Positions 25,337-41,233 of a stretch of 64,000 nucleotides of DNA are shown here, piece after piece; positions within the stretch are counted from its first letter, which is position 1, and each line of letters opens with the position of its first letter. Below the pieces are notes generated by a model, which was not told the origin of the DNA, did no database searches, and saw nothing but the letters and a program-made list of their open reading frames with translations. The DNA is taken from assembly GCF_001854125.1 (NCBI RefSeq), contig NZ_CP017715.1, positions 124,001-188,000 on the forward strand. The letters run 5' to 3'. Source of the DNA: Marinobacter salinus. Lineage in GTDB: Bacteria > Pseudomonadota > Gammaproteobacteria > Pseudomonadales > Oleiphilaceae. The position numbers and the translations under genes were made by a program.

Positions 25337-25623
25337 GGAGGTTTCCTCGGTTGTGTTGGAATGGGTCGGTTGTCAGTCCTGTACTGGACTATTTTGGTGC
25401 TGATCGCAAAAAAGAATAAAAAACAGTGCTTTTTGACGCAAACGTATTTTCCGGTTTTTTCATGTTGTAGAGTATCGGCTCTGGCAACATGTAAGGGATG
25501 ACATCCGGTTCAGAGAAGAACCATCTTCCGCGTCTTCGGTACCCGTCCCTTTCCTACTGTTCTCATTTTTTGTATCAGTTGCACAAAGAACCATCGTTCT
25601 TGGCAGGTTTAGGAGCCCAATCC

Positions 25624-26589: not shown

Positions 26590-26909
26590 TGAGGATCCTA
26601 TTGGCATTGCTGGTGTGCTTCACCCTGGCGGCTTGTGTCCAGGCGCCGTCACGCAATACCCAGGTTGTGGATGATCGCCCGGGTCTGGCTTTCGAGGTGA
26701 ACTCGGTGGCTGCGGAATACTATGAGCTGCGGATTGATGATGTTTCTTATGGTTATGTGCGCCAATACCTGGCCGGTGAAAACCTGCTGAAACTCATTGA
26801 TGGGACCCATCAGGTAGAACTTCTTTCCGACGGGAAGGTGGTTTACCAGCAAGAAGTGTATCTCGGGGCGGGCTCTAACCGGATTCTGAAGGTAGGGAAC
26901 TATGACTGA
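26589..26909 (+). CDS. small lipoprotein between CsgG and DUF4810 genes
   Basis: A 106-residue lipoprotein (lipobox LAAC at about residues 14-17) with a beta-rich mature part (YYELRIDDVSYGYVRQYL; HQVELLSDGKVVYQQEVYLG). The fold may be PEGA-like. Its ATG overlaps the CsgG stop by one base and its end overlaps the DUF4810 start by 8 nt, so it is translationally coupled on both sides. It is not part of the three-gene CsgG/DUF4810/DUF799 unit as I know it. Confidence 0.72.
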   Translation: MRILLALLVCFTLAACVQAPSRNTQVVDDRPGLAFEVNSVAAEYYELRIDDVSYGYVRQYLAGENLLKLIDGTHQVELLSDGKVVYQQEVYLGAGSNRILKVGNYD

Positions 26910-27249
26910 AAAATATCTTCTTGGGTTGTCATTACTGGTTCTGCTGACTGGTTGTGCGAGCAATCAGGGCCTCTACGAGTGGGGGCAGTACCAGGAAACG
27001 CTGTTTGTGGTTTACCACGAACCGGAACTCAAGGAAGAGGCTCTGAGAGGCTACCTTGAGTTTGTTGAAACGGGTGGAACGCCGCAGCACCCGATTGCTC
27101 CCGGCCTTTACGCCGAAGCCGGCACGTTTATGCTGGAGCAGGGTGACGTTGATACCGCAATTAAGTTCTACAAAATGGAATACGAAGCATGGCCCGAGAG
27201 CCAGCCGATGCTGGGTATGTTGATTGAGAACCTGGAGGCCAGAAAATGA
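26902..27249 (+). CDS. DUF4810 domain lipoprotein
   Basis: A 115-residue lipoprotein (LTGC lipobox) matching DUF4810: LYEWGQYQETLFVVYHEPE and APGLYAEAGTFMLEQGD. The middle resembles one TPR-like helical pair. It normally sits between CsgG and DUF799 genes and is presumed to be part of the same envelope complex. It overlaps both neighbours (8 nt and 4 nt). Confidence 0.87.
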   Translation: MTEKYLLGLSLLVLLTGCASNQGLYEWGQYQETLFVVYHEPELKEEALRGYLEFVETGGTPQHPIAPGLYAEAGTFMLEQGDVDTAIKFYKMEYEAWPESQPMLGMLIENLEARK

Positions 27250-27914
27250 GTAAGTTGAAACTGTGCCTCGTGTTTTGCCTCGTCGCCCTGGCCACCGGTT
27301 GCGCCACCTCCGGAAATCCGAATCGCCTGAATGCATTCCACGATGCGGCGCCGAGGTCTGTTCTGGTGGTTCCGCCTGTCAATATGACCACGGATGTGCA
27401 GGGGACAACTTCAGTATTGGCAACCTTGCCATTCTATCTCGCTGAAAGAGGCTACTACGTTTTTCCCGTGAATACGGTAAAAACGCTGCTGGAATACGAA
27501 GGTTACTATGAGCCGGCCGAAGCACATGCGGCACCGCCGGAACAGCTGGCGAATCTGTTCAAAGCGGACTCCATTCTCTATGTGACGATTCACGAGTGGA
27601 CGTCGCGGTACATGCTGCTGACGACAACAACCGAGGTGGATTTCGAGTACCGCATTGTTAATGCAGACGGCGCTGAGCTCTGGTCTGCACGGCAGCAAAT
27701 GACCTACACGCCGGACAATAACAGTTCCGGCAACCCGCTGATTGATCTGATTGCCATGGCGGTTACTGCGGCGGTTGAGAGAGCTGCACCAAATTACCTT
27801 CCACTAACCCGGCAGGCGAATTCATTGGCCTTTTACGGTCCTAACGGTGTTCCTCCCGGGCCATACAGCCCGTTGTATGAGCAGTATTACAAACAGTTGG
27901 ATGCTGCCCAGTAG
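27246..27914 (+). CDS. DUF799/GNA1162 family lipoprotein
   Basis: A 222-residue lipoprotein (ATGC lipobox) of the GNA1162/DUF799 family: SVLVVPPVNMTTDVQGTTS, RGYYVFPVNTVKTLLEYEG, FKADSILYVTIHEWTSRYM. The structure of family members is TolB-N-like and they are surface-exposed in Neisseria. It is the last gene of the CsgG operon and is followed by a strong terminator. The function of the assembly is unknown. Confidence 0.88.
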   Translation: MSKLKLCLVFCLVALATGCATSGNPNRLNAFHDAAPRSVLVVPPVNMTTDVQGTTSVLATLPFYLAERGYYVFPVNTVKTLLEYEGYYEPAEAHAAPPEQLANLFKADSILYVTIHEWTSRYMLLTTTTEVDFEYRIVNADGAELWSARQQMTYTPDNNSSGNPLIDLIAMAVTAAVERAAPNYLPLTRQANSLAFYGPNGVPPGPYSPLYEQYYKQLDAAQ

Positions 27915-28012: not shown

Positions 28013-29911
28013 TCACCGGGAGCGGTGCAGGGCTCCATCGAAGAACGAGGCAAGCTCATCGACGTTGCCCAGTGGGAGCACCTGCGAAACGTAATGGTCC
28101 GGTCGCACTACGACAACGGCGCCGTTTCTGTCGATACCGCGGGTATCGAAAATGTCGACTTCCGGATCGATGGCGTAGACCTTTTCATAGTCTGTTACTT
28201 GGAAGGGCCCCACCTTCGGCGCAAAGATGGCGGAGATGTTCGGGCCAAATTCGATCTCCCCATGGGGTTGTTGGTAGATCACCTTGACGTCGAAGATGCT
28301 GTCCAGGTCCGAGCCCTCGGGCGTGTACTTCACAACCGGCGAGTCGGGTGAGCTGAACAGCCACTCCGCCCATGCGGCCAAACGGGAATCCTCCCCGGGA
28401 CGGGCCTTGTCGGCGAAGGCGTAGATTCGCCAACGGCCGTCGGCGGTGGCATGGTGACCCAAGTGGACATCATTGCCATCGCAAACGCGCGTTACCCGCT
28501 CCGATTTGAACCGTTTGCCAACGGGGAAGCCGGTGGCCAGGTTCTGGTGTTCTGTGGTGCCGGTGATCATCGACTCCGTGTACTCGGTCATGAAGCCAGC
28601 CGGAAACTCGGCGGTTTTCACGTAAAAATCCGCCAGCTCTTTCGGATCCTCGAACTCCTCGGCGGGCTTGGCCATCAAGCTCGACCATTCCCGATCGAAG
28701 TCGATCAGGTTCTGCGCGACAACCTGGCGTTCACTCGAATAGGTACTGAGTAGAGATTCGGGTGCAATGCCGGAGAGCACATGGCCCAGCTTCCAGGCGA
28801 TGTTCCAACCGTCCTGCATGGATACGTTCATGCCCTGACCTGCTTTGGCGCTGTGGGTATGGCAGGCGTCACCGGTGATAAACACCCGTGGAGCCCGGGA
28901 GTCTTCTTCGCCGGGTGGAACGTCATCGAATTTGTCGGTCACTCGGTGGCCAACCTCATAGACGGCGTACCAGGCGCAGTTCTTCACCTCCAGGGTATAA
29001 GGGTGCAAGATCTGGTTGGCCTTCTTGATGGTGGTTTCCAGGGTGGTCTGGCGTATCTGGTGATTGTCATCCTCGGGGACTTCGCCGAGGTCGACGTACA
29101 TCCGGAACAGGTGACCGCCTTCGCGGGGAATGAGCAGAATACTGCCACCGGTTGATGACTGAATGGCACACTTGGTGCGGATATCCGGGAAGTCGGTGGT
29201 GGCCAGCACATCCATCACACCCCAGGCATGATTCGAAACCGCGCCGATGTGCTTGCGGCCAATCGATTCACGAACGCGACTGTGTGCGCCATCGCAACCG
29301 ATGACGTATTTGGCTTTCACCGTGCATTCCTGACCTTCGTTATCGCCCGCGGTATGGCGCAATGTGACTTCGACGGGATAGTCCTCGCCGTCGTGAGTCG
29401 TCAGCCCTACGAACTCCAGGCCGAAGTCGGGGGTCAGCCGGGCGGGGGCGTTTTTGGCGAACTCGGCGAAGTAATCGAGAACCCGGGCCTGGTTGACGAT
29501 CAGATGGGGAAACTCGCTGATCTTACCGCCGGGATCATCTAATGCCACCGAGGAGCGGGCAATGTGCTCCGGGTTATCGGCATCCGGGGCCCAGAACGCC
29601 ATCTCGGTTATACGGTAGGCCTCTTCAGTGATTCTTCCGGCAAAACCGAATGCCTGGAATGTTTCGACGCTGCGTGCCTGGATGCCATCGGCCTGGCCGA
29701 TTTCCAATCGTCCCGAACGCCGTTCGACGACACGAGTAGTAATGTTCGGAAACTTGGCCAACTGGGCAGCGGCAATCATGCCGGCAGGTCCGCTGCCGAC
29801 GATGAGCACATCCACGGTATCCGGCAATGTCTCCGGGCGGTCAATGCCCGTGCCGGACGCTTCCTCGACTCTCGGATCGGTGGATACGTATCCGTGATGG
29901 TGAAATTGCAT
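28013..29911 (-). CDS. MobA-like FAD-dependent aromatic monooxygenase
   Basis: A 632-residue flavoprotein of the phenol 2-monooxygenase type, closest in my reading to 3-hydroxybenzoate 4-monooxygenase (MobA). GxGxxG reads VGSGPAGM (about 38-45), the DG motif GCDGAHSRVRE, and the GD motif FITGDACHTHSAKAGQGMN; a C-terminal thioredoxin-like domain follows. It hydroxylates an aromatic ring using NAD(P)H and O2. As the last gene of the hpa island, which lacks hpaBC, it probably makes homoprotocatechuate; 3-hydroxyphenylacetate is the likely substrate by analogy with MobA regiochemistry. Start supported by GGAGAAG. Confidence 0.82.
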   Translation of the reverse strand: MQFHHHGYVSTDPRVEEASGTGIDRPETLPDTVDVLIVGSGPAGMIAAAQLAKFPNITTRVVERRSGRLEIGQADGIQARSVETFQAFGFAGRITEEAYRITEMAFWAPDADNPEHIARSSVALDDPGGKISEFPHLIVNQARVLDYFAEFAKNAPARLTPDFGLEFVGLTTHDGEDYPVEVTLRHTAGDNEGQECTVKAKYVIGCDGAHSRVRESIGRKHIGAVSNHAWGVMDVLATTDFPDIRTKCAIQSSTGGSILLIPREGGHLFRMYVDLGEVPEDDNHQIRQTTLETTIKKANQILHPYTLEVKNCAWYAVYEVGHRVTDKFDDVPPGEEDSRAPRVFITGDACHTHSAKAGQGMNVSMQDGWNIAWKLGHVLSGIAPESLLSTYSSERQVVAQNLIDFDREWSSLMAKPAEEFEDPKELADFYVKTAEFPAGFMTEYTESMITGTTEHQNLATGFPVGKRFKSERVTRVCDGNDVHLGHHATADGRWRIYAFADKARPGEDSRLAAWAEWLFSSPDSPVVKYTPEGSDLDSIFDVKVIYQQPHGEIEFGPNISAIFAPKVGPFQVTDYEKVYAIDPEVDIFDTRGIDRNGAVVVVRPDHYVSQVLPLGNVDELASFFDGALHRSR

Positions 29912-30070
29912 GGTGACTTCTCCTTTTTTGTTTTCTGGGGCCGTACGGATGGTAGTGAGACCTCTCTACGCTGCCTCTTGTAGGAATCCGCTTTTTTGTA
30001 GGTATGTGGTGGCTTCAGTTAATTCTGCGGAGTTAAGTCTGTGCAGGAAATGTAAAAATCTGGCTTGTTA

Positions 30071-30081
30071 TTGCACTTTTC
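30071..30081 (-). promoter_or_regulatory. GAAAAGTGCAA motif upstream of the MobA-like gene
   Basis: GAAAAGTGCAA on the minus strand, 160 nt before the start codon. The same 11-mer occurs at a similar distance upstream of hpaD, suggesting a shared activator site. Confidence 0.4.
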
Positions 30082-30151
30082 TGTATTTGGTCGAGTTGCC
30101 ATAGATCACGGCCTACCCGCTGCAGGCCGTTACAGTCTCTGGTGCTTGGCC

Positions 30152-31078
30152 TCAGATACGGCTTGAGCCGGGAATAAAGGACTCGGTGACTGAGGCCTGC
30201 GGAGCAGGAACCTTGTCGCCGCTGACCTTGGATACCGGGAATACGGCGTTGATCTGGCCAGTCCCTGAGCTGCCGAAGTACGGTGTCAGTATTTCCGCTT
30301 TCTGGTCGTACTCGGACCAGCCCAGTGCGCCCAGCAGCATGGCGGTGTCATGCATAAAGCCTTCACCGTGACCCTTTACGGCGTATTCGGGCAGCATTTC
30401 GCAGAAGTCTTCCCACTCGCCGTTTTCCCACATCCGAACCACTTCGTGATCCAGGCGTTCGAGGAACGGAGACCAGGTTTTGGTGGCGAACTTTGGTGCC
30501 TGACCATTCTGGGCAAAGCGGTGGGAGAGCGAGCCGCTGGCAAATATCGCCACGGTGCCATCGTAGTGCTCTTCGATCGCCTTGCGCATGGCCCAGCCCA
30601 GACGGGCACTGTCATTCAGGTAGTGCACGGTGCACATTGCAGAGACGGAGATTACCTTGAAGTGGCGGTCTTCGTTCATATAGCGCATCGGTACCAGAGT
30701 GCCGTACTCGGGATCGAGGGTGGTCTTGTCATGGGCCAGTGTTTCCACGCCCTGAGCATTGCATTCGGCCGCCAGAATTTTGCCGAGCTCAGGATTTCCG
30801 TCGTATTCAAACTTCATATTAGAGATGAAGTGAGGCAGTTCACCACTGGTGTAATTACCTTTGAAGTGTTCGCCACAATTGATGTGGTAGTTGGCGTTTA
30901 CCAGCCAATGGGTATCGAATACGACAATGGTATCCACACCCAGCTCACGGCAGCGGCGGCCGATCTCGATATGACCGTCGATGGCCGGTTGGCGAAAGCC
31001 CTTCTGCGGACCGTCCAGCTCGGATAGATACATGGATGGCACATGCGTGATCTTAGCGGCAAGCGCGAGTTTTCCCAT
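30152..31078 (-). CDS. hpaD: 3,4-dihydroxyphenylacetate 2,3-dioxygenase
   Basis: A 308-residue LigB-type extradiol dioxygenase that follows E. coli HpcB/HpaD closely (MGKLALAAKITHVPSMYLSE; DTIVVFDTHWLVNANYHIN; YGTLVPMRYMNED). Iron-binding and catalytic histidines lie in ITHVPS, DTHWLV and SGSLSHRF. It cleaves homoprotocatechuate to 5-carboxymethyl-2-hydroxymuconic semialdehyde. The C-terminus is about 20 residues longer than in E. coli. The gene has its own 224-nt upstream region with the GAAAAGTGCAA motif. Confidence 0.94.
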   Translation of the reverse strand: MGKLALAAKITHVPSMYLSELDGPQKGFRQPAIDGHIEIGRRCRELGVDTIVVFDTHWLVNANYHINCGEHFKGNYTSGELPHFISNMKFEYDGNPELGKILAAECNAQGVETLAHDKTTLDPEYGTLVPMRYMNEDRHFKVISVSAMCTVHYLNDSARLGWAMRKAIEEHYDGTVAIFASGSLSHRFAQNGQAPKFATKTWSPFLERLDHEVVRMWENGEWEDFCEMLPEYAVKGHGEGFMHDTAMLLGALGWSEYDQKAEILTPYFGSSGTGQINAVFPVSKVSGDKVPAPQASVTESFIPGSSRI

Positions 31079-31229
31079 GACAGTTTCCTTTTGTTGTTGA
31101 AGGTTGTGGGTGCATTGGGTGACAACGTGCCTTGTTGTTGATTTTGATTGGCAGCGCCTGGTTCCAGTATTTGTAACTCAATTATTCTCGGCTCTTCTTT
31201 GACAGGAAATGCAGTATTCACGTTAAAAG

Positions 31230-31240
31230 TTGCACTTTTC
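31230..31240 (-). promoter_or_regulatory. GAAAAGTGCAA motif upstream of hpaD
   Basis: Same 11-mer and orientation as at 30071, 152 nt before the hpaD start. It may be a target of the AraC-type regulator HpaA; that link is inferred. Confidence 0.4.
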
Positions 31241-31302
31241 GGTTTTGTTGCCCGGCATAGCCTGACTCCCCAGTGCTGGTTTCCGGGACCATGGTGCTCT
31301 CC

Positions 31303-32505
31303 TCAGGCTTCTGCTTCCGGGCTGCGCTGCCGACTAACCGCATAATAGTGAGCACCAAGCGCCGCTACGGGCGCCAGAAAGATGCAGAAGGCAATCGCCA
31401 GCACGCCTTCGCCGAGCAGCAACGGCATGAGCTGAGCAATCACGGAGCCCGTTAAAAGTTGTATGAACCCCATCAGCCCCGAAGCGGTGGCCGCCGATGT
31501 GGGCGAGCAGCTGATCGCAGCGGATTGGGCGTTGGGCTGGCTGAGTCCCCGGCCGAACGTAACCACGGCCATTGGCAGGAACAGCGTGGCGTAGCTCAGC
31601 TCGCCACCGAGCGCGAAACCGAGCAGTGTCAGTGCGCCGGTCAGTGAAAGCGCGTTGCCGAGTAGCATTACCTGATCGGCACTGGCGTGCCTGGCAAGCC
31701 GCGTCGACAGGAAGCTGCCAGTCATAAATGCCAGCGAAACTGCCAGAAACCAGGTGCCAAACAGGGCAGAACTACCACCGAGCCGATCGACTATATAGGG
31801 GGCGGTGCCAACGAATATATAGAACGCTGCGGCGATGAAGGTAGTGGAGAGTGCATAGCCGATATACCCCCCTGAGCTGAAGACACCTGCATAGCGCTGA
31901 ATGACCGGGCCCAGCCGCAGGCTGTCACTTTTCTCACGACAGGTCTCAGGAAGCTGCAGTGTGGCCACCAGCAGCGCTATGATCCCCATGCCCAGGGAAA
32001 CATAAAAGATGGACTGCCATCCCGCCCAGAGATTCAGGTAGCCGCCTAGCATCGGGGCGATTGCCTGGGAGGTGGCTATTGCCATTACGACATAACCCAT
32101 GCGACTGGCGGCTCCCTCCCGGCCATAGATGTCGATGATAATCGTGCGCGCCAGTACCATTGCAGCACTACCCCCGAGTGCCTGCAGCACACGGCCGGCG
32201 ATCAATAGTGTGACATCGGGCGCGAGTGCTGCGAGCAGGCTCCCGAGCGTGTGGAGGGCAAGTCCCCCGAGCAGGATAGGGCGTCGCCCGAAGTGGTCGG
32301 CAAGTGGGCCGGAGAGTAACTGGCCGAATGCCAGCATGAACAGATAAGCCGTAAAACTTAGCTGAATCACCCCGACCCCGGTCCGGAGGTCCCTCGCAGC
32401 GTCCGGCATTGCTGGCACGAACAGGTTGAGCGCCATTGGGCTCGCCATGGCGATAATTGTCATCAGGGCGATAGACAGTTTGCGAACCGGGGTGTCGGCT
32501 GTCAT
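31303..32505 (-). CDS. Bcr/CflA-type MFS transporter
   Basis: A 400-residue protein with about 12 membrane helices. The loop motif GPLADHFGRRPILLGG between helices 2 and 3 and RTIIIDIYGREGAASRMGYV are typical of the Bcr/CflA drug-H+ antiporter branch. It lies inside the hpa island where an HpaX-type importer could be expected, but the motif suits export, perhaps of toxic catechol or semialdehyde intermediates. Two tandem candidate HpaR boxes lie upstream. The ribosome-binding site is weak. Confidence 0.87.
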   Translation of the reverse strand: MTADTPVRKLSIALMTIIAMASPMALNLFVPAMPDAARDLRTGVGVIQLSFTAYLFMLAFGQLLSGPLADHFGRRPILLGGLALHTLGSLLAALAPDVTLLIAGRVLQALGGSAAMVLARTIIIDIYGREGAASRMGYVVMAIATSQAIAPMLGGYLNLWAGWQSIFYVSLGMGIIALLVATLQLPETCREKSDSLRLGPVIQRYAGVFSSGGYIGYALSTTFIAAAFYIFVGTAPYIVDRLGGSSALFGTWFLAVSLAFMTGSFLSTRLARHASADQVMLLGNALSLTGALTLLGFALGGELSYATLFLPMAVVTFGRGLSQPNAQSAAISCSPTSAATASGLMGFIQLLTGSVIAQLMPLLLGEGVLAIAFCIFLAPVAALGAHYYAVSRQRSPEAEA

Positions 32506-32614
32506 TTTTTGATGCTGTCTCAGTGCAGGGCGCGCAAGAGTGAGCGCAGCTCACGTTCTTTCAGCATTGCGAAGAAATCTCCACCGGACGAGGCGCGGCG
32601 ACGGTCACTCAATA

Positions 32615-32658
32615 ATAATTAATATATTAACTATAAAACTAGTTAACATATTATCTAA
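32615..32658. promoter_or_regulatory. two tandem candidate HpaR operators upstream of the MFS gene
   Basis: The 20-mer at 32639-32658 (CTAGTTAACATATTATCTAA) matches the hpaH-promoter palindrome at 18 of 20 positions; the one at 32615-32634 matches at 16. Their centres are 24 nt apart. They sit between hpaR and the MFS gene, so they probably control the latter. Confidence 0.6.
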
Positions 32659-32703
32659 TGTCAATGCCTTGAGGTATGGCGATCGCCAGTCCAGGAAGTG
32701 CGT

Positions 32704-33126
32704 TCAGGGCTTAACGTCACAGAGTTTGTTCAGCAACTCTTCCAGTTTTTTCATGTCCTCGGGCGAGAAGCGCTCGGTCATTTCAAGGTAGCGTGCTTCG
32801 AGGAGGGGGCTCATTCGGGCGAACATCTCCTTGGATTTGTCGGTCAGGCTGATCAGGATCCGGCGCTGATCCTCGCTGGACTTTCGGCGCTTTATGTAAC
32901 CCTGTTGTTCCAGCCGGTTAATGATTCCCGTGAGGCTGGGGCTCAGTATGCAGCACAGTTCCGCCAGTTGTTTTGATTCCAGTTCCTCGAATTCATTGAG
33001 CGCGCGGATGACACGCCATTGCTGCTCGGTAAGGGGAATTTCCTGAAGCAGGGGGCGGAAAAAGGCCATGGCAGCCTCGCGGGCCTTGAGCAGCCGGAGG
33101 GGGAGCGAGTCATTAAACTTGCGCAT
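32704..33126 (-). CDS. hpaR: MarR-family homoprotocatechuate operon repressor
   Basis: A 140-residue MarR-type regulator matching HpaR/HpcR (SLPLRLLKAREAAMAFFRPL; LTEQQWRVIRALNEFEELES; CILSPSLTGIINRLEQQGYI). It should repress the meta-cleavage genes and release DNA on binding a pathway intermediate. Palindromic boxes of the expected MarR type occur in four promoter regions of the island, including its own, which suggests autoregulation. The AT-rich start region has only a weak ribosome-binding site. Confidence 0.92.
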   Translation of the reverse strand: MRKFNDSLPLRLLKAREAAMAFFRPLLQEIPLTEQQWRVIRALNEFEELESKQLAELCCILSPSLTGIINRLEQQGYIKRRKSSEDQRRILISLTDKSKEMFARMSPLLEARYLEMTERFSPEDMKKLEELLNKLCDVKP

Positions 33127-33197
33127 GAATTGGATTACCTTGGTCGTCCGGTCTTTGGGAGTTCGCCTGATGGCTGCGAAAACCAGCAGAGGATCAT

Positions 33198-33217
33198 TTT
33201 ATTAATGTATTAAGGAA
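33198..33217. promoter_or_regulatory. weak candidate HpaR operator upstream of hpaR
   Basis: TTTATTAATGTATTAAGGAA matches the reverse complement of the hpaH-promoter palindrome at 14 of 20 positions and lies 72 nt before the hpaR start. It could serve autoregulation. Confidence 0.35.
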
Positions 33218-33220
33218 TGT

Positions 33221-34140
33221 CTAGTGTGTTCCGCGGGCCGCCGTGTGCTTGCGGAATTGCTGGGCGGTCATCCCGGTATGCTTCTTGAAGAAACGTGAGA
33301 AGTAAGCAGGATCGGAGAAGCCCAGCTGGTAGCAAATCTCGTTACTGGAAAGATTGCTGAAAATCAGCATGCGCTTGCTTTCCTGAATCACCCGGTCGTG
33401 GATCAGCCGTTTGGGGGCCTGTTGGCAATTCGTTGACATGTCTGGTTCAAACGACTTTCTGAAATCGCCATTTCCGTGGTGTAGCGAGGCAGATGCCACT
33501 GCTCCTGATAGTGTTCCTCGATCATATCGGTGAAACGACGGAACAGCCGCAGATCCTCATTGTTTACGGTTCTGCTGGCGGATCGTTTGAAAGAAAGCCG
33601 GGCCATGCGGATCAGTAACAGCCGGACCAGACTCTTAGTTGCCAGCTCCTTCGCCATTTCATCCGAAGACCATTCCAGCTGGATATCTTCCAGTATGCGC
33701 GCCAGCAGTGTCCATTGGGTTCTCTGTCCCCTGGGTAGCCGGTCCCGCTCCAGACAGATGCCTTCGGTGAGGCTGGTGTCGATTTCGCGACCGACGTTGT
33801 CCTGCATGAGTTGCCATACCACGGACTGATGAATCGTCAGCACGTGCCCGCGGGCACTGGGATCGGTGCGGAAGGAGTGGGGAATAGACGCCGGCGTATA
33901 GAAACAGCTGGGTCCGTTTACTTCGTAGACCTTGTCATCGATATGAAAATCGATTGCGCCATGATCGATATAGTGAATCTGGACATACTGGGCATGGCGG
34001 TGTACCGGCATGTCGCGGCCATAGAATGCAGCCAGGTTTTCCAGCACATCATAGTGTATGGGCGCATCCAGATAGCGCCTGTCGTAATCCTGACCCAGGA
34101 TGATGTTGGGAATCCATTCGGTGTGATCGGCTTCGCTCAT
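33221..34140 (-). pseudogene. hpaA: hpaA, AraC-family activator, broken by a frameshift
   Basis: The first part (start ATG 34140, MSEADHTEWIPNIILGQDYD) is a cupin-type sensor followed by the first AraC helix-turn-helix (ISESRLNQTCQRIANRPP). The frame then ends in NG-stop at about 33403. The second half (PKRLIHDRVIQESKRMLIFS to FFKKHTGMTAQQFRKHT) continues in another frame. One extra C in the CCCCC run at about 33413-33417 would restore a 306-residue HpaA, similar in length to E. coli HpaA (about 296). HpaA normally activates the hydroxylase genes. It may be inactivated or a sequencing error in the homopolymer. Confidence 0.85.
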
Positions 34141-34222
34141 GGCGCGAATATAGCAGAAGTTGGAAAGGACCGGGGCCCGCGCAGCGAGGCGGGGCCCGGT
34201 TGGTTTAGCCTGGAGCGCGCAA

Positions 34223-35758
34223 TCAGCCTTTACCAAGCTGCGGTACCCGGTGGGTCCCGTGCGCGATGCAGACGTTCTTGGTTTCCATATAGAAGTCAAA
34301 GCTCCAGTCGCCGCCGTCACGGCCGATACCTGACATCTTGATGCCCCCGAACGGGGACGGCAGGTTACGGTTGTTTTCCGAGTTCACCCACAGCATGCCG
34401 GCTTCGACGTGCCTGGCCATGCGCATGGCACGGCCGGTGTTCTCCGTCCAGATATAGCCGGACAGGCCGTATTCCGTATCGTTGGCAATCGCGATGGCTT
34501 CCTCTTCGGTATCGAAGGTGATTGCGGTCAGTACCGGGCCGAAGATTTCTTCCTGTGCGATGCGCATCCTGCTGCTGGCTTCGGTGAACAGGGTCGGCTC
34601 CAGGTAGTTGCCGGCCGGGTCCAGGTCGCCGCTTGCCTCGGTAATGCGCTTGCCGCCTACGGCGATGTTGGCGCCGTCCTCTTTGGCAATGTCGAAGTAG
34701 CTCGAAACCTTGTCGTAATGCTCGGTGTGGACCAGCGGACCGACTTCGGTATTCGGATCCAGCGGGTGACCGACTTTCAGATTGCGAACTCTCTGTTCCA
34801 GTGCGGCGAGGAACTTGTCGCGAATGCCGCTCTGGATCAGTAGACGGCTCGAGGAGGTACAGCGCTGGCCATTGAGGCTGTAGATCATGAACACGACGGC
34901 ATCCAGTGCCCGCTCGAAGTCGGCGTCGTCAAACACGATGACCGGGTTCTTCCCGCCCAGTTCGAAATGCATGCGTTTCAGGCTGTCAGCACCCTGGCGC
35001 ATGACGTGGGAGCCTGTGGCGGATTCCCCTACCAGGGCCACGGCCTTGATTGCCGGGTGTTCGGTCATTCGCTTGCCAACGCTCTCGCCGAAGCCGTTGA
35101 CCATGTTCCAGACTCCCTTCGGCAGAACTTCATCGGCGATCTCTGCCAGGATGTAGGCACTCAGGGGCGTCAACTCAGCCGGCTTGTGGACAACGGTACA
35201 GCCTGCCGCCAGGGCAGGCGCGATTTTCCAGGTAGACAGCATGAACGGTGTGTTCCAGGGCGTGATGATGCCCACCGGGCCAATCGCGTTGCGTACGGTA
35301 AAGTTAGTGTGTTCCTGCTGCTGGAGGGCGAGGCCGTCCTGGGCTTCCGGCGCCTTGTCAGCGAAGAATCGGAAGTTGGCAGCACCGCGTTCGGCTGCCT
35401 TTTTCATGAAACGGATCGCCTGGCCGCAGTCCATGGATTCGACCAGGGCGATTTCGTCGGCACGCTCTACAAGTCGGTCGGCGAATTTGTTCAGCAGCCG
35501 CTTGCGTTCGGCGCCCGGTGTGGCAGCCCAGGCTTCAAACGCATCCTCGGCAGCCTTGCAGGCGGCATTCATGTCGTCGGTTGAGCCGGCCATGATCTTG
35601 CCGATGGGGCTGTTGTCGGTCGGCGTGATGTTATCGTACTCGCTGCCGCCATTGCCCAGAGTGAACTCACCGTTGATATAGTGACCGGTAGTGTTGTTCC
35701 TGAAGCGCTCCAGGTAGCGCTGGGCACGTTCCAGGTTGGTCGCTTGCGTATCGCTCAT
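34223..35758 (-). CDS. hpaE: 5-carboxymethyl-2-hydroxymuconate semialdehyde dehydrogenase
   Basis: A 511-residue aldehyde dehydrogenase. The general-base Glu lies in FELGGKNPVI and the nucleophile Cys in NGQRCTSSSRL; the NAD-binding segment includes ITPWNTPFMLSTWKIAPALA. Its place between hpaG2 and hpaA and its length fit HpaE, which oxidises the ring-cleavage semialdehyde to 5-carboxymethyl-2-hydroxymuconate with NAD+. It begins 18 nt after hpaG2 with a good ribosome-binding site (AGGAGAACC). Confidence 0.93.
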   Translation of the reverse strand: MSDTQATNLERAQRYLERFRNNTTGHYINGEFTLGNGGSEYDNITPTDNSPIGKIMAGSTDDMNAACKAAEDAFEAWAATPGAERKRLLNKFADRLVERADEIALVESMDCGQAIRFMKKAAERGAANFRFFADKAPEAQDGLALQQQEHTNFTVRNAIGPVGIITPWNTPFMLSTWKIAPALAAGCTVVHKPAELTPLSAYILAEIADEVLPKGVWNMVNGFGESVGKRMTEHPAIKAVALVGESATGSHVMRQGADSLKRMHFELGGKNPVIVFDDADFERALDAVVFMIYSLNGQRCTSSSRLLIQSGIRDKFLAALEQRVRNLKVGHPLDPNTEVGPLVHTEHYDKVSSYFDIAKEDGANIAVGGKRITEASGDLDPAGNYLEPTLFTEASSRMRIAQEEIFGPVLTAITFDTEEEAIAIANDTEYGLSGYIWTENTGRAMRMARHVEAGMLWVNSENNRNLPSPFGGIKMSGIGRDGGDWSFDFYMETKNVCIAHGTHRVPQLGKG

Positions 35759-35776
35759 AATGGTTCTCCTGAAGGC

Positions 35777-36559
35777 TCAGTATTTGTCGCCGTAGTACTC
35801 TTTCTCGGAGACGATGCGTGTCTCGAGCGAGCAGATATTTTCGATGGTGCAGACCACGGTGTCTCCGGGCTGCATGTCGACCATACCGTGCGGGGTGCCG
35901 GTGGCGATCATGTCACCCGGGTTCAGGGTCATGATCTTGCTCAGGTACTCCACCAGGAAGGGAATGTCGAAGATCATGTCCCTCGTTGAGCCGTCCTGAG
36001 TGATCTTGCCGTTGACTTCGGTAGTCAGGCGCAGGTTGTTGACGTCTGCGACGTCATCGCGGTCGACAATCCACGGCCCCATCGGTAACAGGGAGTCCCG
36101 GCTCTTTACCCGCAGGTTCGGGCGGTAGTAGTTCTCCAGATAGTCTCGGATTGCGAAGTCGTTGCACACGGTATAGCCAGCTACATAGTCCATCGCATCT
36201 TCACGCTTGATGTTCTTGCCTCTTTTGCCGATCACCGCCACCAGCTCACATTCGTAATGCTGGAACTCGATGTTGTCGGGACGGTAGCTGACCTGTTTGT
36301 GCCCGGTCAGGGTATTGGCGTGCTTGATGAATACCAGTGGTTCCTTGGGCGGCTCGAACGCCAGCTCGGTGGCGTGATCGGCATAGTTCAGGCCCAGTGC
36401 GAAAATGGTGCCCGGTTGCTTGACCGGCGGCAGCCAGGTGATATCACCCGAATCCAGTGCTACGTCCAGCACCTCGCCGCCACTGGTCGTGATGCGATCG
36501 TTGGTATCGATGTCGATATCCAGCTCGCGGCCGTCAAAAATGATGCGTGCGTGTCTCAT
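35777..36559 (-). CDS. hpaG2: HpaG C-terminal-type subunit (COHED decarboxylase/isomerase)
   Basis: A 260-residue fumarylacetoacetate-hydrolase-fold protein equivalent to the second half of E. coli HpaG (GTIFALGLNYADHATELAFE; DYVAGYTVCNDFAIRDYLEN; YYRPNLRVKSRDSLLPMG). The metal-binding acids are present in HYECELVAVIGK. With the hpaG1 product it should decarboxylate 5-oxopent-3-ene-1,2,5-tricarboxylate and isomerise the product. The split into two genes is as in Pseudomonas rather than the fused enterobacterial form. It starts 3 nt after the hpaG1 stop. Confidence 0.9.
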   Translation of the reverse strand: MRHARIIFDGRELDIDIDTNDRITTSGGEVLDVALDSGDITWLPPVKQPGTIFALGLNYADHATELAFEPPKEPLVFIKHANTLTGHKQVSYRPDNIEFQHYECELVAVIGKRGKNIKREDAMDYVAGYTVCNDFAIRDYLENYYRPNLRVKSRDSLLPMGPWIVDRDDVADVNNLRLTTEVNGKITQDGSTRDMIFDIPFLVEYLSKIMTLNPGDMIATGTPHGMVDMQPGDTVVCTIENICSLETRIVSEKEYYGDKY

Positions 36560-36562
36560 GGC

Positions 36563-37231
36563 TCAGGCACCTCCCAGTGTATTGGTCAGGGTGCCGACAC
36601 CCTCGATGGTTGCTTCTACCTTGTCTCCCCTGGCGACCGGAACGCGTTCACCGGCAAAGCCGACGGCGATGACCTCTCCCGGTTGCAGGGTCATAATCCA
36701 GGATATTTTGCTGATCAGCTCGGCAACGCTGCGTTGCATATTCGCCAACGGAAACACGCTCTTCTGTTCGCCATTGACGAGAACATTGACCGTGAGGGCA
36801 TCCGGATTGTCGATAGTGTCGGCCGGGACAATTTCCGGGCCGACCGGCGCGGAAGTGTCCAGGCATTTGCCCTTGATATCGGGCCGGAAGTAGTTTTCTT
36901 CCGGCAGCGAAAAATCGCTGACGATGGTGTAGCCACGGACATAATCCAGTGCTTCAGCCTGACTGACGCGGCAGGTTTCCCGGCCAATGACCACGCCCAG
37001 GCTGGCGCCAACGGCCATGGCTTGAACATCGTTGCCGGCGAAATCTTTCGCCCATTCCACCTCCGCACCATCAACATTCCAGGTATTGCGGGGCTTGTAA
37101 TACAGCACCGGCTGGGTCGGCGGTTTTTTGTAGGGCGCTTCGTTGAAGGTGCCCTCCAGAGCCACCAGCTGCGACTTGTCATTCAGTGCGACGCAGACCA
37201 GCTTGCTGTTAACCAGGGTGTTTGCTGTCAT
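36563..37231 (-). CDS. hpaG1: HpaG N-terminal-type subunit (COHED isomerase/decarboxylase)
   Basis: A 222-residue protein equivalent to the first half of E. coli HpaG (FNEAPYKKPPTQPVLYYKPR; ALDYVRGYTIVSDFSLPEEN; YFRPDIKGKCLDTSAPVG). As in E. coli's N-terminal half, the metal-binding ExE segment is replaced (GASLGVVIGR), so it probably pairs with HpaG2 for activity. ATG 37231 gives MTANTLVNSKLVCVALN; upstream alternatives lack support. It lies 32 nt after hpaI. Confidence 0.88.
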   Translation of the reverse strand: MTANTLVNSKLVCVALNDKSQLVALEGTFNEAPYKKPPTQPVLYYKPRNTWNVDGAEVEWAKDFAGNDVQAMAVGASLGVVIGRETCRVSQAEALDYVRGYTIVSDFSLPEENYFRPDIKGKCLDTSAPVGPEIVPADTIDNPDALTVNVLVNGEQKSVFPLANMQRSVAELISKISWIMTLQPGEVIAVGFAGERVPVARGDKVEATIEGVGTLTNTLGGA

Positions 37232-37263
37232 GAGTAACCTTTTCCTGTTGCGGCCGTCGTTGA

Positions 37264-38070
37264 TCAATAGCCGGCCTGAGGTTTGTCGTCTTTAACTGGA
37301 GCGCCCTGTTTGAAACGCTGCGCCAGCTTGCGGGTTTCTGTGGCCAGAATCATGGTGTCGACGCCAACGCCAACGAAGTTGGCGCCTTGTTGGATGTAGC
37401 TTTCCGCCAGGGATGGGTCGAGACAGAGCAAGCCCGCGTATTTGCCGGCAGAACGTATCCTGTTGAGACCCTCGTCGATGACCTCAATGACCGCCGGATT
37501 GCCTGCGTCGCCGATATAACCCATGGATGCGGAAAGATCGGACGGCCCGATGAAAACCCCGTCCACGCCCTCAACTGCCAGGATCTCATCGAGGTTGTCC
37601 ATGGCGCTGGCGGTTTCCACCTGGACAATCAGGCAGATCTCGTCATTGGCCTTCTTCATGTAGCCTGGTACCTGATTCCAGCGGGCCGCGCGAGCGAGCG
37701 ACGTGCCGAGGCCGCGAATGCCGTCCGGTGGGTAGCGAACCGCCTGCACCAGCCGTTTCGCCTGTTCTGCGTCCTCTACCATGGGGACCAGCAGCGTCTG
37801 TACACCGATATCCAGCAGCTGTTTGATGAGTGCCGTATTGCCCTCGACACAACGCACGATCGGGGCGACATCGTAGGGAGCCATTGCCTGCAGGTGAGAC
37901 AGGATTGTGCGCAGGTCGAACGGGGCATGTTCGCCGTCGATGAGTAGCCAATCGAAGCCGGCTACCGCGGCAATTTCGGCGGCGCTGTTGTCCGGCAGGC
38001 CCAGCCAGAGCCCATATTGGGTTTCACCCGTGGCCAGCCCCTGTTTGAAACGGTTCTTGGGCAGTTCCAT
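37264..38070 (-). CDS. hpaI: 4-hydroxy-2-oxoheptane-1,7-dioate aldolase
   Basis: A 268-residue class II metal-dependent aldolase of the HpcH/HpaI family. QYGLWLGLPDNSAAEIAAVA, FDWLLIDGEHAPFDLRTIL and VEGVDGVFIGPSDLSASMGY match E. coli HpaI throughout, including the metal ligands around QVET and GPSDLS. It splits 4-hydroxy-2-oxoheptanedioate into pyruvate and succinic semialdehyde, the last step encoded here; no succinate semialdehyde dehydrogenase gene is present in the window. Confidence 0.94.
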   Translation of the reverse strand: MELPKNRFKQGLATGETQYGLWLGLPDNSAAEIAAVAGFDWLLIDGEHAPFDLRTILSHLQAMAPYDVAPIVRCVEGNTALIKQLLDIGVQTLLVPMVEDAEQAKRLVQAVRYPPDGIRGLGTSLARAARWNQVPGYMKKANDEICLIVQVETASAMDNLDEILAVEGVDGVFIGPSDLSASMGYIGDAGNPAVIEVIDEGLNRIRSAGKYAGLLCLDPSLAESYIQQGANFVGVGVDTMILATETRKLAQRFKQGAPVKDDKPQAGY

Positions 38071-38094
38071 GCTCGTGTCCTCGATGCGGTCTGT

Positions 38095-38898
38095 TTATTC
38101 GAAGTTCAGGGTCACGCCACCCAGAGAACCGAAATCGGCATGTACGGTATCGCCGGCCTTGACCGGGACCGGCCGGGTGAAGGAGCCGGACAGAATAACC
38201 TGACCCGGTTCGAGGCCCACGCCGTGCGGTGCAAAGCGCTTGCAGACCCATGTGATTCCCTTGAGCGGATTGCCCAGAACGCCGCCAGCGAGCCCGGTCT
38301 CTTCGATCTGGCCGTTCAGGTAAAGCATGCAGCCGGCCCAGCGCAGGTCGATGTCCATTGGTTTGATGGGGCGGCCTCCCATGACGATGCCGGCATTGGC
38401 GGCATTGTCGGAGATGGTGTCATAGACTTTGCGTGTGTAGCCGGTTTCGGGATCGGTGCGAAGGCAGCGGGCCGCAATCAGTTCGAGCGACGGGATGATG
38501 TAGTCAGTTGCGTTGATAACATCGAAAATGGTGATGTTGTCGCCGAACAGGGGCTTTTTCAGCACGAAGGCCAGCTCGACCTCTATGCGAGGGTCGAGGA
38601 AGTCCGATGCCTTGATGGTGGCACCATCCTCGAGCAGCATGTCATCAAGCAGAACCCCATAGTCCGGTTCATCGATATTCGAGGACATCTGCATAGCGCG
38701 GGAGGTCAGGCCAATCTTGTAGCCGATCACCTCACGGCCTTCGGCCACCTTGCGATCCACCCAGGCCTTCTGGATGGCATAGGCCTCCTCCATAGTCATG
38801 TCCGGATACTCGAGCGTCAGGGCCGGGATCTGTTTGCGGCTGGTCTCAGCTTGGTATAGGCGGTCGGCAGCCGTTTCGATCTGATCTTTCGTCAACAT
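38095..38898 (-). CDS. hpaH: 2-oxo-hept-3-ene-1,7-dioate hydratase
   Basis: A 267-residue protein, the same length as E. coli HpaH (MTMEEAYAIQKAWVDRKVAE; VIGYKIGLTSRAMQMSSNID; RIEVELAFVLKKPLFGDN). It adds water to 2-oxohept-3-enedioate in a metal-dependent reaction. It is the first gene of the leftward hpa transcript; the 307-nt divergent region to hpaF holds two candidate HpaR operators. ATG 38898 gives the canonical start MLTKDQIETAADRLY. Confidence 0.93.
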   Translation of the reverse strand: MLTKDQIETAADRLYQAETSRKQIPALTLEYPDMTMEEAYAIQKAWVDRKVAEGREVIGYKIGLTSRAMQMSSNIDEPDYGVLLDDMLLEDGATIKASDFLDPRIEVELAFVLKKPLFGDNITIFDVINATDYIIPSLELIAARCLRTDPETGYTRKVYDTISDNAANAGIVMGGRPIKPMDIDLRWAGCMLYLNGQIEETGLAGGVLGNPLKGITWVCKRFAPHGVGLEPGQVILSGSFTRPVPVKAGDTVHADFGSLGGVTLNFE

Positions 38899-39014
38899 GC
38901 TTGCAATGCACCTTTTTTTGTCGGGTGGATGACCGGTGGTGGTCTGTCTCGGGCTGAAGTCGCTCAAGTCCTGAGTCCGGAACGAGCGCTGGGCCCAGCA
39001 ATAATTATGATATT

Positions 39015-39034
39015 TTAGTTAACATATTAACTAA
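39015..39034. promoter_or_regulatory. candidate HpaR operator, hpaH promoter
   Basis: TTAGTTAACATATTAACTAA is an almost perfect 20-bp palindrome (only the central positions break symmetry), 117 nt before hpaH. It is the best copy of a motif repeated in four promoter regions of the island. Confidence 0.7.
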
Positions 39035-39105
39035 GTCAAGAGTCCGATAGAGGCTGCTGAATGCTCATTTCCCAGATGGATTTCATTTTCGGGAGCGAGT
39101 TGACA

Positions 39106-39125
39106 AAACTTAATATGTTAATTAG
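39106..39125. promoter_or_regulatory. candidate HpaR operator, hpaF-TRAP promoter
   Basis: AAACTTAATATGTTAATTAG shares the 12-nt core TTAATATGTTAA with the reverse complement of the hpaH-promoter palindrome (15 of 20 positions in all). It lies 81 nt before hpaF. Confidence 0.6.
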
Positions 39126-39205
39126 ATTCTGGATAATCCCGGTTTCGAAAACGTTGCCGGGGGCATCCAATAACAACGATGAACCTATTATCCGGGACTC
39201 ATCCT

Positions 39206-39592
39206 ATGCCTCATTTCATCGTCGAGTATTCAGGTAACCTCCACGACCGTCTGGAGTTCCAGTCTCTGTTCTCACGTTTACACGAATACGTTGTCTCTAC
39301 CGGGGCTTTCCCAATTGGTGGTGTTCGTAGTCGGGCTATTCGTTGTGACGACTTCCGGGTCGCGGATGGCAGGGAAGACTTCTCCTTCCTGAACCTGACC
39401 CTGAAGATTGGCCATGGCCGGGACATGGATCTGAAAAAGGAAGTCGCCGAGCGGGTGTTTGACATTCTGTGCGACTGGATGAAGCCGGTCACCGATACCA
39501 GCTATTGCCAGATCTCATTCGAGATGACGGAGCTGGATCCCGTTCTCAAATTCAACAGGAACAACATTCATCCACTTTTCGCGGATACCTGA
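39206..39592 (+). CDS. hpaF: 5-carboxymethyl-2-hydroxymuconate isomerase
   Basis: A 128-residue protein close in size to E. coli HpaF (126). After Met removal Pro1 (MPHFIVEYSGNL) is the catalytic base of this tautomerase-superfamily enzyme. Other conserved stretches are PIGGVRSRAIRCDDFRVADG and FLNLTLKIGHGRD. It converts the muconate product of HpaE into the oxo form used by HpaG. It is read divergently from the rest of the pathway and leads the TRAP transporter operon, 83 nt away. Confidence 0.92.
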   Translation: MPHFIVEYSGNLHDRLEFQSLFSRLHEYVVSTGAFPIGGVRSRAIRCDDFRVADGREDFSFLNLTLKIGHGRDMDLKKEVAERVFDILCDWMKPVTDTSYCQISFEMTELDPVLKFNRNNIHPLFADT

Positions 39593-39675: not shown

Positions 39676-40713
39676 ATGACAACAACAAAGATCTTTACCA
39701 AAGCCGCCATACTTTCATTGGGGCTGGCGATTTCCGGCAGCGCTCTTGCCGCCACGACGTTGCACGTGGGCACCTGGCTGCCGCCGACCAACCCGCAGAA
39801 CGCAGTGGTCTGGCCGACATGGGCCAAATGGGTCGAAGAGGCAACCGAAGGACGGGTTAAGGTTGAAATCGAAAATGATCTGGGCCACCCGAAAACCATG
39901 TTCCAGCTGGTAGAGGACGGTGTCGTCAACGCCGGATTCAGTTACCACGGTTACGTTCCGGGCCGTTTCCAGTTGCCCCAGATGGTGGAATTGCCGGGTC
40001 TGGGAGTAGGCGCCGAGGCGGCTTCCGTTGCACTCTGGCGGGTGTATAACAAGTACTTCATGGACTCCGGTGAGTTTGAAGGTTTGACCCTCATAGGCAC
40101 GTTTACCCATGGTCCGGGCTATATCCATTCCATTGAGCCGATCACCTCCTTCGATCAGATAAAGGACAAGAAGATTCGTATTGGTGGTGGCGTCCAGACC
40201 GAGCTTGGCAAGCGGATGGACGTGACTCCGGTTTCGGCACCCGCCCCAAAAGTCTATCAAATGATGCAGCAGGGGGTGATTGATGGCGCCTTCCTCCCCA
40301 TGGGTGAGCAGAAGACCCTGCGTCTCAAGGAAGTGGCGCCCAACGTCACCATGCTCCCTGGAGGCATGTACCTCGGCAGCTTTTCCATGTTCATCGATCC
40401 ATACTTCCTGGAAAAGCTGGACCCCAAGGATCGCGAGGCGATCATGAGCGTATCGGGCGAAAAACTCTCCGCCCTGGCCGGACGCGCCTGGGATGGTATT
40501 GATGACGAGGGCCTGAAGGCCGCGCAGGAAGCCGGCGTGAACATCATCCAGGTCAAGGAAGGTGATCAGATGGCGCAGGACTTCCAGAAGCTGATTCAGG
40601 GCATGGACGAACAGTGGATCCAGAACGTGTCTGATCGTGCCCCGAATGCCCGACAGGCGCTCAAGGAGCTGCGGACCGTTGCCCGAGAGTATGAGCGTGA
40701 ACACCAGGAGTAA
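39676..40713 (+). CDS. TRAP transporter substrate-binding protein (DctP type)
   Basis: A 345-residue periplasmic solute receptor with a signal peptide ending in GSALA. LEKLDPKDREAIMSVSGEKL and IKDKKIRIGGGVQTEL are typical of the DctP family, including the Arg region that binds a carboxylate. By its place after hpaF and under a candidate HpaR box, the ligand is likely a hydroxyphenylacetate or related aromatic acid (inferred). It is 4 nt from the dctQ-type gene. Confidence 0.9.
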   Translation: MTTTKIFTKAAILSLGLAISGSALAATTLHVGTWLPPTNPQNAVVWPTWAKWVEEATEGRVKVEIENDLGHPKTMFQLVEDGVVNAGFSYHGYVPGRFQLPQMVELPGLGVGAEAASVALWRVYNKYFMDSGEFEGLTLIGTFTHGPGYIHSIEPITSFDQIKDKKIRIGGGVQTELGKRMDVTPVSAPAPKVYQMMQQGVIDGAFLPMGEQKTLRLKEVAPNVTMLPGGMYLGSFSMFIDPYFLEKLDPKDREAIMSVSGEKLSALAGRAWDGIDDEGLKAAQEAGVNIIQVKEGDQMAQDFQKLIQGMDEQWIQNVSDRAPNARQALKELRTVAREYEREHQE

Positions 40714-40717
40714 CCGC

Positions 40718-41233
40718 ATGTCTCTCGCTACATGGGTTAACAGGCATTATAGCGAGAAGGGGCCAGCCAAGTGGCTGGTCTTCCTTCTGGAGGTTGTGGC
40801 AGCGTCAGTTCTCTTCCTGCTTATGTTGACTACCTGCGTGGACGTGGCCGGACGCTACCTCTTCAACAGTCCCGTTCCCGGGGCCACTGAGCTCACCCGG
40901 CTCGGCCTTGCCCTCATGGTATTCGCGGCGATGCCGGTTATCACTTATCGGGGTGGGCATATTGTGGTGGATCTGCTGGACAATGTGCTTGGGGAAAAGG
41001 TGTTGAAGGTTCTTGGGCTGCTTTCCGCCCTTGTTATCTCCTCTTCGATGTACTTCCTTGCGGTACGGATCTTTGAGCTCGGCGAGAGGTCGATCCGGCG
41101 TGGTGTTGTGACGGAATTTCTCGGCCTTCCCAGTGGTTATATCACTGAGTACATCGCCATTATGAGCTGGCTGACCGCCGCGTGCATGATAACGCTCGGC
41201 GTTTATCGCGTCTTGTTCACTCCTGACAAATAA
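40718..41233 (+). CDS. TRAP transporter small permease (DctQ type)
   Basis: A 171-residue four-helix membrane protein with the DctQ signature of a charged residue followed by GRYLFNSPVPGATELTRLGL. It forms the small subunit that joins the DctM-type permease. The start ATG 40718 is 4 nt after the receptor gene. Confidence 0.9.
   Translation: MSLATWVNRHYSEKGPAKWLVFLLEVVAASVLFLLMLTTCVDVAGRYLFNSPVPGATELTRLGLALMVFAAMPVITYRGGHIVVDLLDNVLGEKVLKVLGLLSALVISSSMYFLAVRIFELGERSIRRGVVTEFLGLPSGYITEYIAIMSWLTAACMITLGVYRVLFTPDK

Follow-up and report, generated by a model that had tools for sequence, protein, structure and literature searches.

What hydroxylates the aromatic ring in a homoprotocatechuate pathway that has no HpaBC? 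The question is raised by the hpa gene cluster of Marinobacter salinus, which lies in a 64-kb stretch of the genome (contig NZ_CP017715.1, positions 124,001 to 188,000; hereafter the window, in whose own numbering the coordinates below are given). The genome is Marinobacter-like, consists of a single contig of 4,121,005 bases and is 99.92% complete. At 28013-29911 on the minus strand, the cluster carries the gene for a one-component FAD monooxygenase of 632 residues, abbreviated here as MO. We consider it quite probable, from sequence comparisons, that MO is the hydroxyphenylacetate hydroxylase of this pathway, which would convert 4-hydroxyphenylacetate (4-HPA), and perhaps 3-hydroxyphenylacetate (3-HPA), to homoprotocatechuate and would stand in for the enzymes HpaBC and C1-C2. 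We read MO as their replacement because of its linkage to the pathway genes, its mutual exclusion with C2, a promoter motif shared with C2 and the separate clade that it forms.

The ring hydroxylase of the hpa locus

Analysis of the gene order showed that hpaH, hpaI, hpaG1, hpaG2, hpaE, hpaA, hpaR, a major facilitator superfamily (MFS) transporter gene, hpaD and MO follow one another on the minus strand, with hpaF and a tripartite ATP-independent periplasmic (TRAP) transporter on the plus strand; MO starts 240 nucleotides beyond the stop codon of hpaD. NCBIfam matches were judged by the curated cut-offs, and all models of the lower-pathway enzymes scored over theirs. The genes on the minus strand are hpaD for the homoprotocatechuate 2,3-dioxygenase (Fe, LigB type; 30152-31078, TIGR02298, 454 bits), hpaE for the 5-carboxymethyl-2-hydroxymuconate semialdehyde dehydrogenase (34223-35758, TIGR02299, 793 bits), hpaG2 and hpaG1 for the C-type and N-type subunits of the decarboxylase/isomerase (35777-36559, TIGR02303, 383 bits, and 36563-37267, TIGR02305, 250 bits, respectively), hpaI for the aldolase (37264-38070, TIGR02311, 381 bits) and hpaH for the hydratase (38095-38967, TIGR02312, 436 bits). 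Together with hpaF for the 5-carboxymethyl-2-hydroxymuconate isomerase (39179-39592, plus strand, Pfam CHMI, 150 bits), they make up the complete set of a homoprotocatechuate meta-cleavage pathway, as the original prediction, made from the letters of this locus, had stated.

The absence of hpaB, which had also been predicted, was borne out by a profile search of the whole genome, in which the HpaB oxygenase family PF03241 had no match (hpaC was not searched for by itself). The Acinetobacter-type C2 oxygenase was not found in this genome either, the best score with NF045920 being 19.3 bits against a cut-off of 650. Seventeen proteins matched PF08028 and were considered as candidates for C2; the seven that were scanned with NCBIfam look like ordinary acyl-CoA dehydrogenases, the best of the seven also by its PDB relatives (60 of 122 matches listed). 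MO is the sole ring hydroxylase at the hpa locus. Intradiol dioxygenases for protocatechuate or catechol (PF00775) were not found in the genome, where dioxygenases of the vicinal oxygen chelate (VOC) type were not searched for, and the model of the LigB-type HpaD had one match, which is HpaD itself.

The MO chain matched FAD_binding_3 (214.9 bits) and Phe_hydrox_dim (187.8 bits), the domains of a class A one-component flavoprotein. Its best solved relative is the 3-hydroxybenzoate hydroxylase MobA of Comamonas testosteroni (PDB 2dkh, 645.7 bits), in agreement with the likeness to MobA noticed earlier. The best NCBIfam model was NF006144 (1016.6 bits, cut-off 560), whose name, 'phenol 2-monooxygenase', applies at the level of the subfamily and is not a test of substrate. 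The closest named relatives, at 90-95% identity, include M. guineae, M. pelagius and M. orientalis, and the names of the relatives in public entries (at least 120 matches) are phenol 2-monooxygenase, 3-hydroxybenzoate 4-monooxygenase or FAD-binding monooxygenase. A phage origin of MO was considered and rejected; two records were found, with MhpA-type matches at 25% identity.

Comparison of MO with MobA showed that the polar substrate ligands are conserved. According to the passages of the literature cited here and below, Asp75 and Tyr271 of MobA bind the hydroxyl group of the substrate and His135 and Lys247 bind its carboxylate (PMC3546652). These four ligands are kept in MO as D75, Y272, H136 and K247 and in all 100 rows of our alignment, whereas the phenol hydroxylase 1pn0 has Gln and Arg in place of the His and Lys of the carboxylate pair. 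MO and MobA thus share their domains, a single-component FAD system, the four polar ligands and an expected hydroxylation ortho to the hydroxyl group. They differ in their phylogeny, in two further positions and in the association of MO with hpa clusters. The comparison with MobA that the original prediction had proposed placed MO in a clade of its own: in a tree of 42 rows, hand-picked from the 100 aligned rows as were those of the 32-row tree described below, the 32 rows of the MO clade were split by a 100/100 branch from MobA and nine MobA-like rows outside it, and the stem of the MO clade is long, with 1.06 changes per column. His228 and Ile258 are present in 90 of 90 rows of the MO clade, and the other ten rows have Gln or Lys and Val or Met, respectively (Gln and Val in MobA).

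Distribution of MO, C2 and the homoprotocatechuate dioxygenases

We sampled 390 genomes of the order, 35 of which had HpaD_Fe over the cut-off, and added two genomes known to carry MO (G004 and G019) for a total of 37. Relatives of MO with at least 66% identity were present in 15 of the 37, all beside hpaD, with a largest gap of about 8.2 kb (in G306); C2 was over the cut-off in 20 genomes and HpaB, by PF03241, in three (G235, G039 and G310). Without the two added genomes (n = 35), 13 had MO, 19 had C2, none had both and three had neither. These three are G310, which has HpaB, G132, and G313, in which the contig is short. The chance of zero overlap between MO and C2 is 3.8e-7 when counted by genomes, a value that kinship makes too small, and 0.0034 when counted by the 17 genera. 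MO is not a genus-wide gene, since a copy with at least 87% identity was present in only 4 of 37 same-genus genomes of the first sample. The 18 distant matches (42-48% identity) were mostly not near hpaD: 14 were on other contigs, three were far off on the same contig and one, in G132, was close to it.

G132, which has neither HpaB nor C2, encodes a homologue of another clade (42-43% identity; L154, 5447-7381, minus strand) 3.5 kb from hpaD, in the slot that is held by C2 in the sister genome G160 (L165), and this homologue is perhaps a second, independent replacement. In genus g39, the clusters L166, L167 and L168 have two hpaD-like genes, which share about 52-54% and 90% identity with the HpaD of the window.

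Beyond the order, we collected 80 loci of named genomes. Most are Actinobacterial, at 67-73% identity, and the set overlaps partly with the order sample. At 48 of the 80 loci, the fetched stretch that contained MO also contained hpaE (at least 40% identical) and one or more other hpa genes. This rule for linkage was applied to our own gene calls, so that L030, L043 and L047 fail it despite having hpa genes by tblastn, and L044 and L071 are from one genome (G431). Among the 32 unlinked genomes, the HpaD of TIGR02295 was over the cut-off in 29, and that of TIGR02298 in M. halodurans. C2 was over the cut-off in none of the 33 linked genomes without HpaB, with weaker matches in 28. MO is accompanied by a LigB-type dioxygenase in the window, and in the Actinobacterial clusters by one of TIGR02295, an unrelated type; it therefore travels with homoprotocatechuate dioxygenases of two unrelated families, in Proteobacteria and in Actinobacteria.

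In a tree of 32 rows, the Proteobacterial copies of MO required three changes of phylum label, the strongly supported branches alone forced at least two, and a single change was obtained in none of 200 bootstraps; such counts are blind to gain as opposed to loss, and the root is not fixed. From this nesting we infer that MO was probably transferred from Actinobacteria repeatedly. At four loci of Prauserella and Saccharopolyspora (L024, L036, L041 and L042), styrene-monooxygenase-like genes are located near MO (the one that was scanned was under its cut-off), and L024, L036 and L042 also have a flavin-reductase-like gene there. These styrene-monooxygenase-like neighbours suggest a link from styrene to hydroxyphenylacetate.

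An operator-like site shared with C2 and the regulators of the cluster

The 11-base element GAAAAGTGCAA, with at most one mismatch, occurs at two places in the window, 170 nucleotides 5' of MO (30071-30081, minus strand) and 162 nucleotides 5' of hpaD (31230-31240, minus strand). The count alone is unremarkable (1.36 expected), but the positions are unusual. At 36 loci of the order there were 25 exact GAAAARTRCAA sites, 21 of which were located 91-256 nucleotides upstream of one of four kinds of gene (MO 10, C2 6, hpaD 4 and P450 1). A search of 49 stretches (864 kb) gave 33 matches at 32 distinct places, one being in an overlap, against a mean of 1.15 and a maximum of 3 in 20 shuffles, and 28 of the 32 sites were less than 350 nucleotides upstream of a gene on the same strand (MO 13, C2 7, hpaD 6, C1 1 and P450 1). 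In each of the 15 MO stretches with a detected hpaA, MO or the hpaD that precedes it had an exact site upstream. Where hpaA was not detected, L152 and L154 had no exact site and L016 had one (hpaA not detected in the stretch).

The site is longer, about 41 bases, in Marinobacter and at most C2 loci, where it includes two TRCA cores at a distance of 21 bases. Two spaced core elements are the layout expected of an AraC-type operator. We trained a 41-base motif on seven C1/C2 promoters with the exact element, none of them from Marinobacter and five from one genus; the training set did not include C2 promoters in which the element was missing or had one mismatch. In the 64-kb window, this motif scored 53.9 bits at the MO promoter (30041-30081, minus strand) and 37.6 bits at the hpaD promoter (31200-31240, minus strand), the next score being 15.2 bits and the maximum in 60 shuffled windows 16.0 bits. 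The MO site and the site of one C2 promoter are identical at 38 of 41 bases, and in G004, which has both hydroxylases, the motif is present at both MO (51.1 bits) and C2 (43.6 bits).

In Escherichia coli, HpaA together with 4-HPA activates the hydroxylase promoter (PMC4468947), and a single-mismatch half-site precedes E. coli hpaB at -123 (three such sites occur in 14 kb). This literature and the co-occurrence with hpaA point to the 41-base motif as a putative binding site of HpaA; if so, MO would answer to a hydroxyphenylacetate. Near MO in L151 (2349, minus strand) and L153 (14229, plus strand) there is a gene for a protein of about 1000 residues, which in L153 has P450, reductase-like and flavodoxin domains and has its own GAAAARTRCAA element 91 nucleotides upstream. 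This protein is a possible supplier of a hydroxyphenylacetate.

The AraC-type regulator gene hpaA of the window (33221-34140, minus strand) is located between hpaR and hpaE, and its profile match is under the cut-off (234.9 against 274.65 bits). The frame of hpaA breaks at a run of G near 33415: 33403-34140 is in one frame and the last DNA-binding part in another, whereas L159-L163 have the gene in a single frame. Either the gene has truly lost the last DNA-binding part, or the assembly is wrong at this point. The MarR-type regulator gene hpaR (32704-33126, minus strand; TIGR02337, 163 bits) and the gene for an MFS transporter of the Bcr/CflA family (31303-32505, minus strand; TIGR00710, 221 bits) are both over their cut-offs. 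Two AT-rich TTAAYATRTTAA-like palindromes 5' of the MFS gene (32619-32654, plus strand) and two TTAAYATRTTAA palindromes between hpaH and hpaF (39019-39030 and 39110-39121, plus strand) are candidate HpaR operators, and a palindrome search gave a TTAATGTATTAA palindrome 5' of hpaR (33202-33213, plus strand). Five of the six matches to the TTAAYATRTTAA type in the window (at most two mismatches) fall in intergenic regions of the hpa cluster and none is 5' of MO; they are likely HpaR sites. Beyond hpaF, the large permease of the TRAP transporter is encoded at 41257-42585 on the plus strand (TIGR00786, 324 bits), and the open reading frames 39676-40713 and 40637-41233, for which there was no NCBIfam match at the threshold used, would by position be the TRAP binding protein and small permease. 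At its low-coordinate side MO adjoins genes for CsgG-like and GNA1162-like lipoproteins (25498-27914), which have no evident tie to the pathway.

Substrate of MO and competing explanations

The original prediction had proposed that 3-HPA is used through a one-component flavoprotein, with the regiochemistry of MobA giving homoprotocatechuate. The one-component replacement is supported by the linkage, the exclusion, the motif and the clade, and a route from 3-HPA is possible; the choice of 3-HPA is less well supported than that of 4-HPA, and regiochemistry does not single it out because hydroxylation of 4-HPA ortho to its hydroxyl group gives the same homoprotocatechuate. We lean towards 4-HPA as the main substrate of MO, since C2 is a 4-HPA enzyme, is nearly exclusive with MO and has nearly the same promoter. 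That MO is specific for 3-HPA alone, in the geometry of MobA plus one CH2 and in a genome that cannot use 4-HPA, is in our judgement unlikely; in the remaining cases MO would use both alike or something else. The conservation in MO of H136 and K247, the pair that positions a carboxylate meta to the hydroxyl group in MobA, speaks for 3-HPA. So do the entry of 3-HPA into this pathway in E. coli, most strains of which use both 3-HPA and 4-HPA via HpaB (PMC7201708), and the arrangement in G004, where MO and C2 both lie next to hpaD and both have the motif, as they would if they served different isomers. The near-complete exclusion with C2 behind a near-identical promoter suggests instead that the two do the same job.

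The neighbours of MO elsewhere also fit 4-HPA. The MO cluster of G306 (L152, by clustering) contains genes for an FAD oxidoreductase, a RidA-like protein, an ornithine-cyclodeaminase-like protein and an aldehyde dehydrogenase, and this module has a counterpart in the C2 genome G409 (L174), one member of which matches the NCBI model 'tyramine oxidase subunit B'. Copper amine oxidases are encoded near MO at three Actinobacterial loci and FeaR-like regulators at six loci, the best of the latter being under the cut-off. Two plasmids, pTC2 of P. aurescens TC1 and one from Rhodococcus NBC_00297, are annotated with MO, an amine oxidase, aldehyde dehydrogenases and hpa genes inside a span of about 26 kb (the annotation table of pTC2 is incomplete, and hpaD is not listed in it). 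The amine oxidases and aldehyde dehydrogenases near some MO copies would form 4-HPA from tyramine. A. arilaitensis Re117 has homoprotocatechuate genes and uses tyrosine, and its authors reported, in the part of the paper on which we draw, that the 4-HPA 3-monooxygenase was 'not located' (PMC2991359), which also fits 4-HPA. The MO family may be the answer to this missing hydroxylase; among the matches listed (at least 120), a relative of MO was present in A. globiformis (P0154) and A. arilaitensis did not appear.

The other explanations are much less probable. MO might act on an earlier intermediate (tyramine, 4-hydroxyphenylacetaldehyde or a methoxylated analogue), so that homoprotocatechuate would arise one step later; the amine oxidase, aldehyde dehydrogenase, styrene-monooxygenase-like or P450 genes near some copies of MO are consistent with this, but no such gene was recognised adjoining MO in the window, the conserved carboxylate ligands suit an acid as substrate, and the partner that is constant across phyla is the hpa cluster and not the amine oxidase, so that we consider this very unlikely. 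It is still harder to believe that MO is a true 3-hydroxybenzoate 4-monooxygenase whose adjacency to hpa genes is incidental. MobA is its best solved relative and some public entries carry that name; MO nevertheless forms a clade apart from MobA and is accompanied across phyla by two kinds of homoprotocatechuate dioxygenase, and since neither an intradiol dioxygenase nor a further match to the model of LigB-type HpaD was found, protocatechuate would be left without an obvious ring-cleavage enzyme in this genome (VOC-type not searched). Least credible of all is a phenol 2-monooxygenase, as the model NF006144, with its high score, and many entries call it, given the carboxylate pair of MO in place of the Gln and Arg of 1pn0, the lack of an intradiol (catechol) dioxygenase in the genome and the promoter motif shared with 4-HPA hydroxylases.

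Several observations weigh against MO as the hydroxyphenylacetate hydroxylase of the pathway or against the regulatory evidence for it. H136 and K247 are present in all ten MobA-like rows of the alignment and so do not separate MO from MobA. MO occurs together with C2 in G004 and together with HpaB in G235, in each case the sole such genome of the 37, and HpaB was over the cut-off in 15 of the 48 linked genomes; 2 of the 32 unlinked genomes had no HpaD over the cut-off by either TIGR02295 or TIGR02298. M. orientalis (L020) carries MO and has no exact element, its HpaA match being only 70 residues long. The MO sites examined outside Marinobacter (L151, L153, L155, L157 and L016) scored only 8.9-15.6 bits, near the shuffled maximum, and these promoters clearly share only the first 11 bases of the motif. 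No motif score was over 6.4 in the Actinobacterial stretches L032, L199 and L200, and in an outside check the motif did not recover the hpaB promoter of E. coli. Because HpaA is frame-broken in this genome, the case for regulation depends on relatives. Negative results for p-hydroxyphenylacetate are described for M. salarius and M. similis in the section consulted (PMC4157798), and their carriage of MO was not checked; growth phenotypes of MO-carrying Marinobacter strains were not found in the open-licence literature. As to G004, C1, C2, hpaD and MO lie side by side in this Marinobacter genome (L159, 4289-10130), which is either a natural intermediate state or a two-substrate arrangement.

If MO is the hydroxyphenylacetate hydroxylase of this pathway, NAD(P)H would reduce its bound FAD and a C4a-hydroperoxyflavin would add the hydroxyl group ortho to the phenolic one, as in MobA and phenol hydroxylase; the catechol so formed would be cleaved by HpaD and processed further by HpaE, F, G, H and I. 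The gene would have passed repeatedly between Actinobacteria and Proteobacteria, and a C2-type promoter would have come to precede it in the Marinobacter line. C1-C2 shares with MO the slot in the pathway, the promoter motif and, in several clusters, the hpaD, MFS and HpaA neighbours; it differs in having an unrelated, acyl-CoA dehydrogenase-like C2 and a separate reductase, whereas MO is a self-contained FAD enzyme. HpaBC of E. coli (PF03241), whose hpaB carries the half-site described above, feeds the same lower pathway with the same product, by means of two components of an unrelated family. MhaAB, the 3-HPA 6-hydroxylase of Pseudomonas putida U, is like MO a flavoprotein system and acts on 3-HPA; unlike MO, it yields homogentisate rather than homoprotocatechuate and needs a coupling protein, as stated in the part of that report cited here (PMC3053370).

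The hydroxylation of 4-HPA in the homoprotocatechuate pathway is described as being typically carried out by two-component flavin enzymes (PMC12718150, in the text consulted), and no description of a one-component 4-HPA or 3-HPA hydroxylase feeding this pathway was found among the matches listed from the open-licence literature. MO belongs to a known enzyme class and its proposed pathway is known, but the pairing is, as far as our searches show, not described there. Taking the genomes together, we think it somewhat probable that MO represents a widespread and misnamed family of one-component 4-HPA 3-hydroxylases, the missing first enzyme of the homoprotocatechuate route of tyrosine and tyramine in many Actinobacteria, which would have moved into Proteobacterial hpa clusters at least twice, taking the place of the two-component enzyme and, in Marinobacter, a near-copy of its promoter. 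If this is true, a large group of proteins that currently go by the name of phenol 2-monooxygenase, 3-hydroxybenzoate 4-monooxygenase or FAD-binding monooxygenase would be renamed, genome annotation could predict growth on tyrosine, tyramine and hydroxyphenylacetates, and a reductase-free catalyst for catechols would be at hand. MO would then also exemplify, in a clean form, the displacement of an enzyme by an unrelated one at a common regulatory site.

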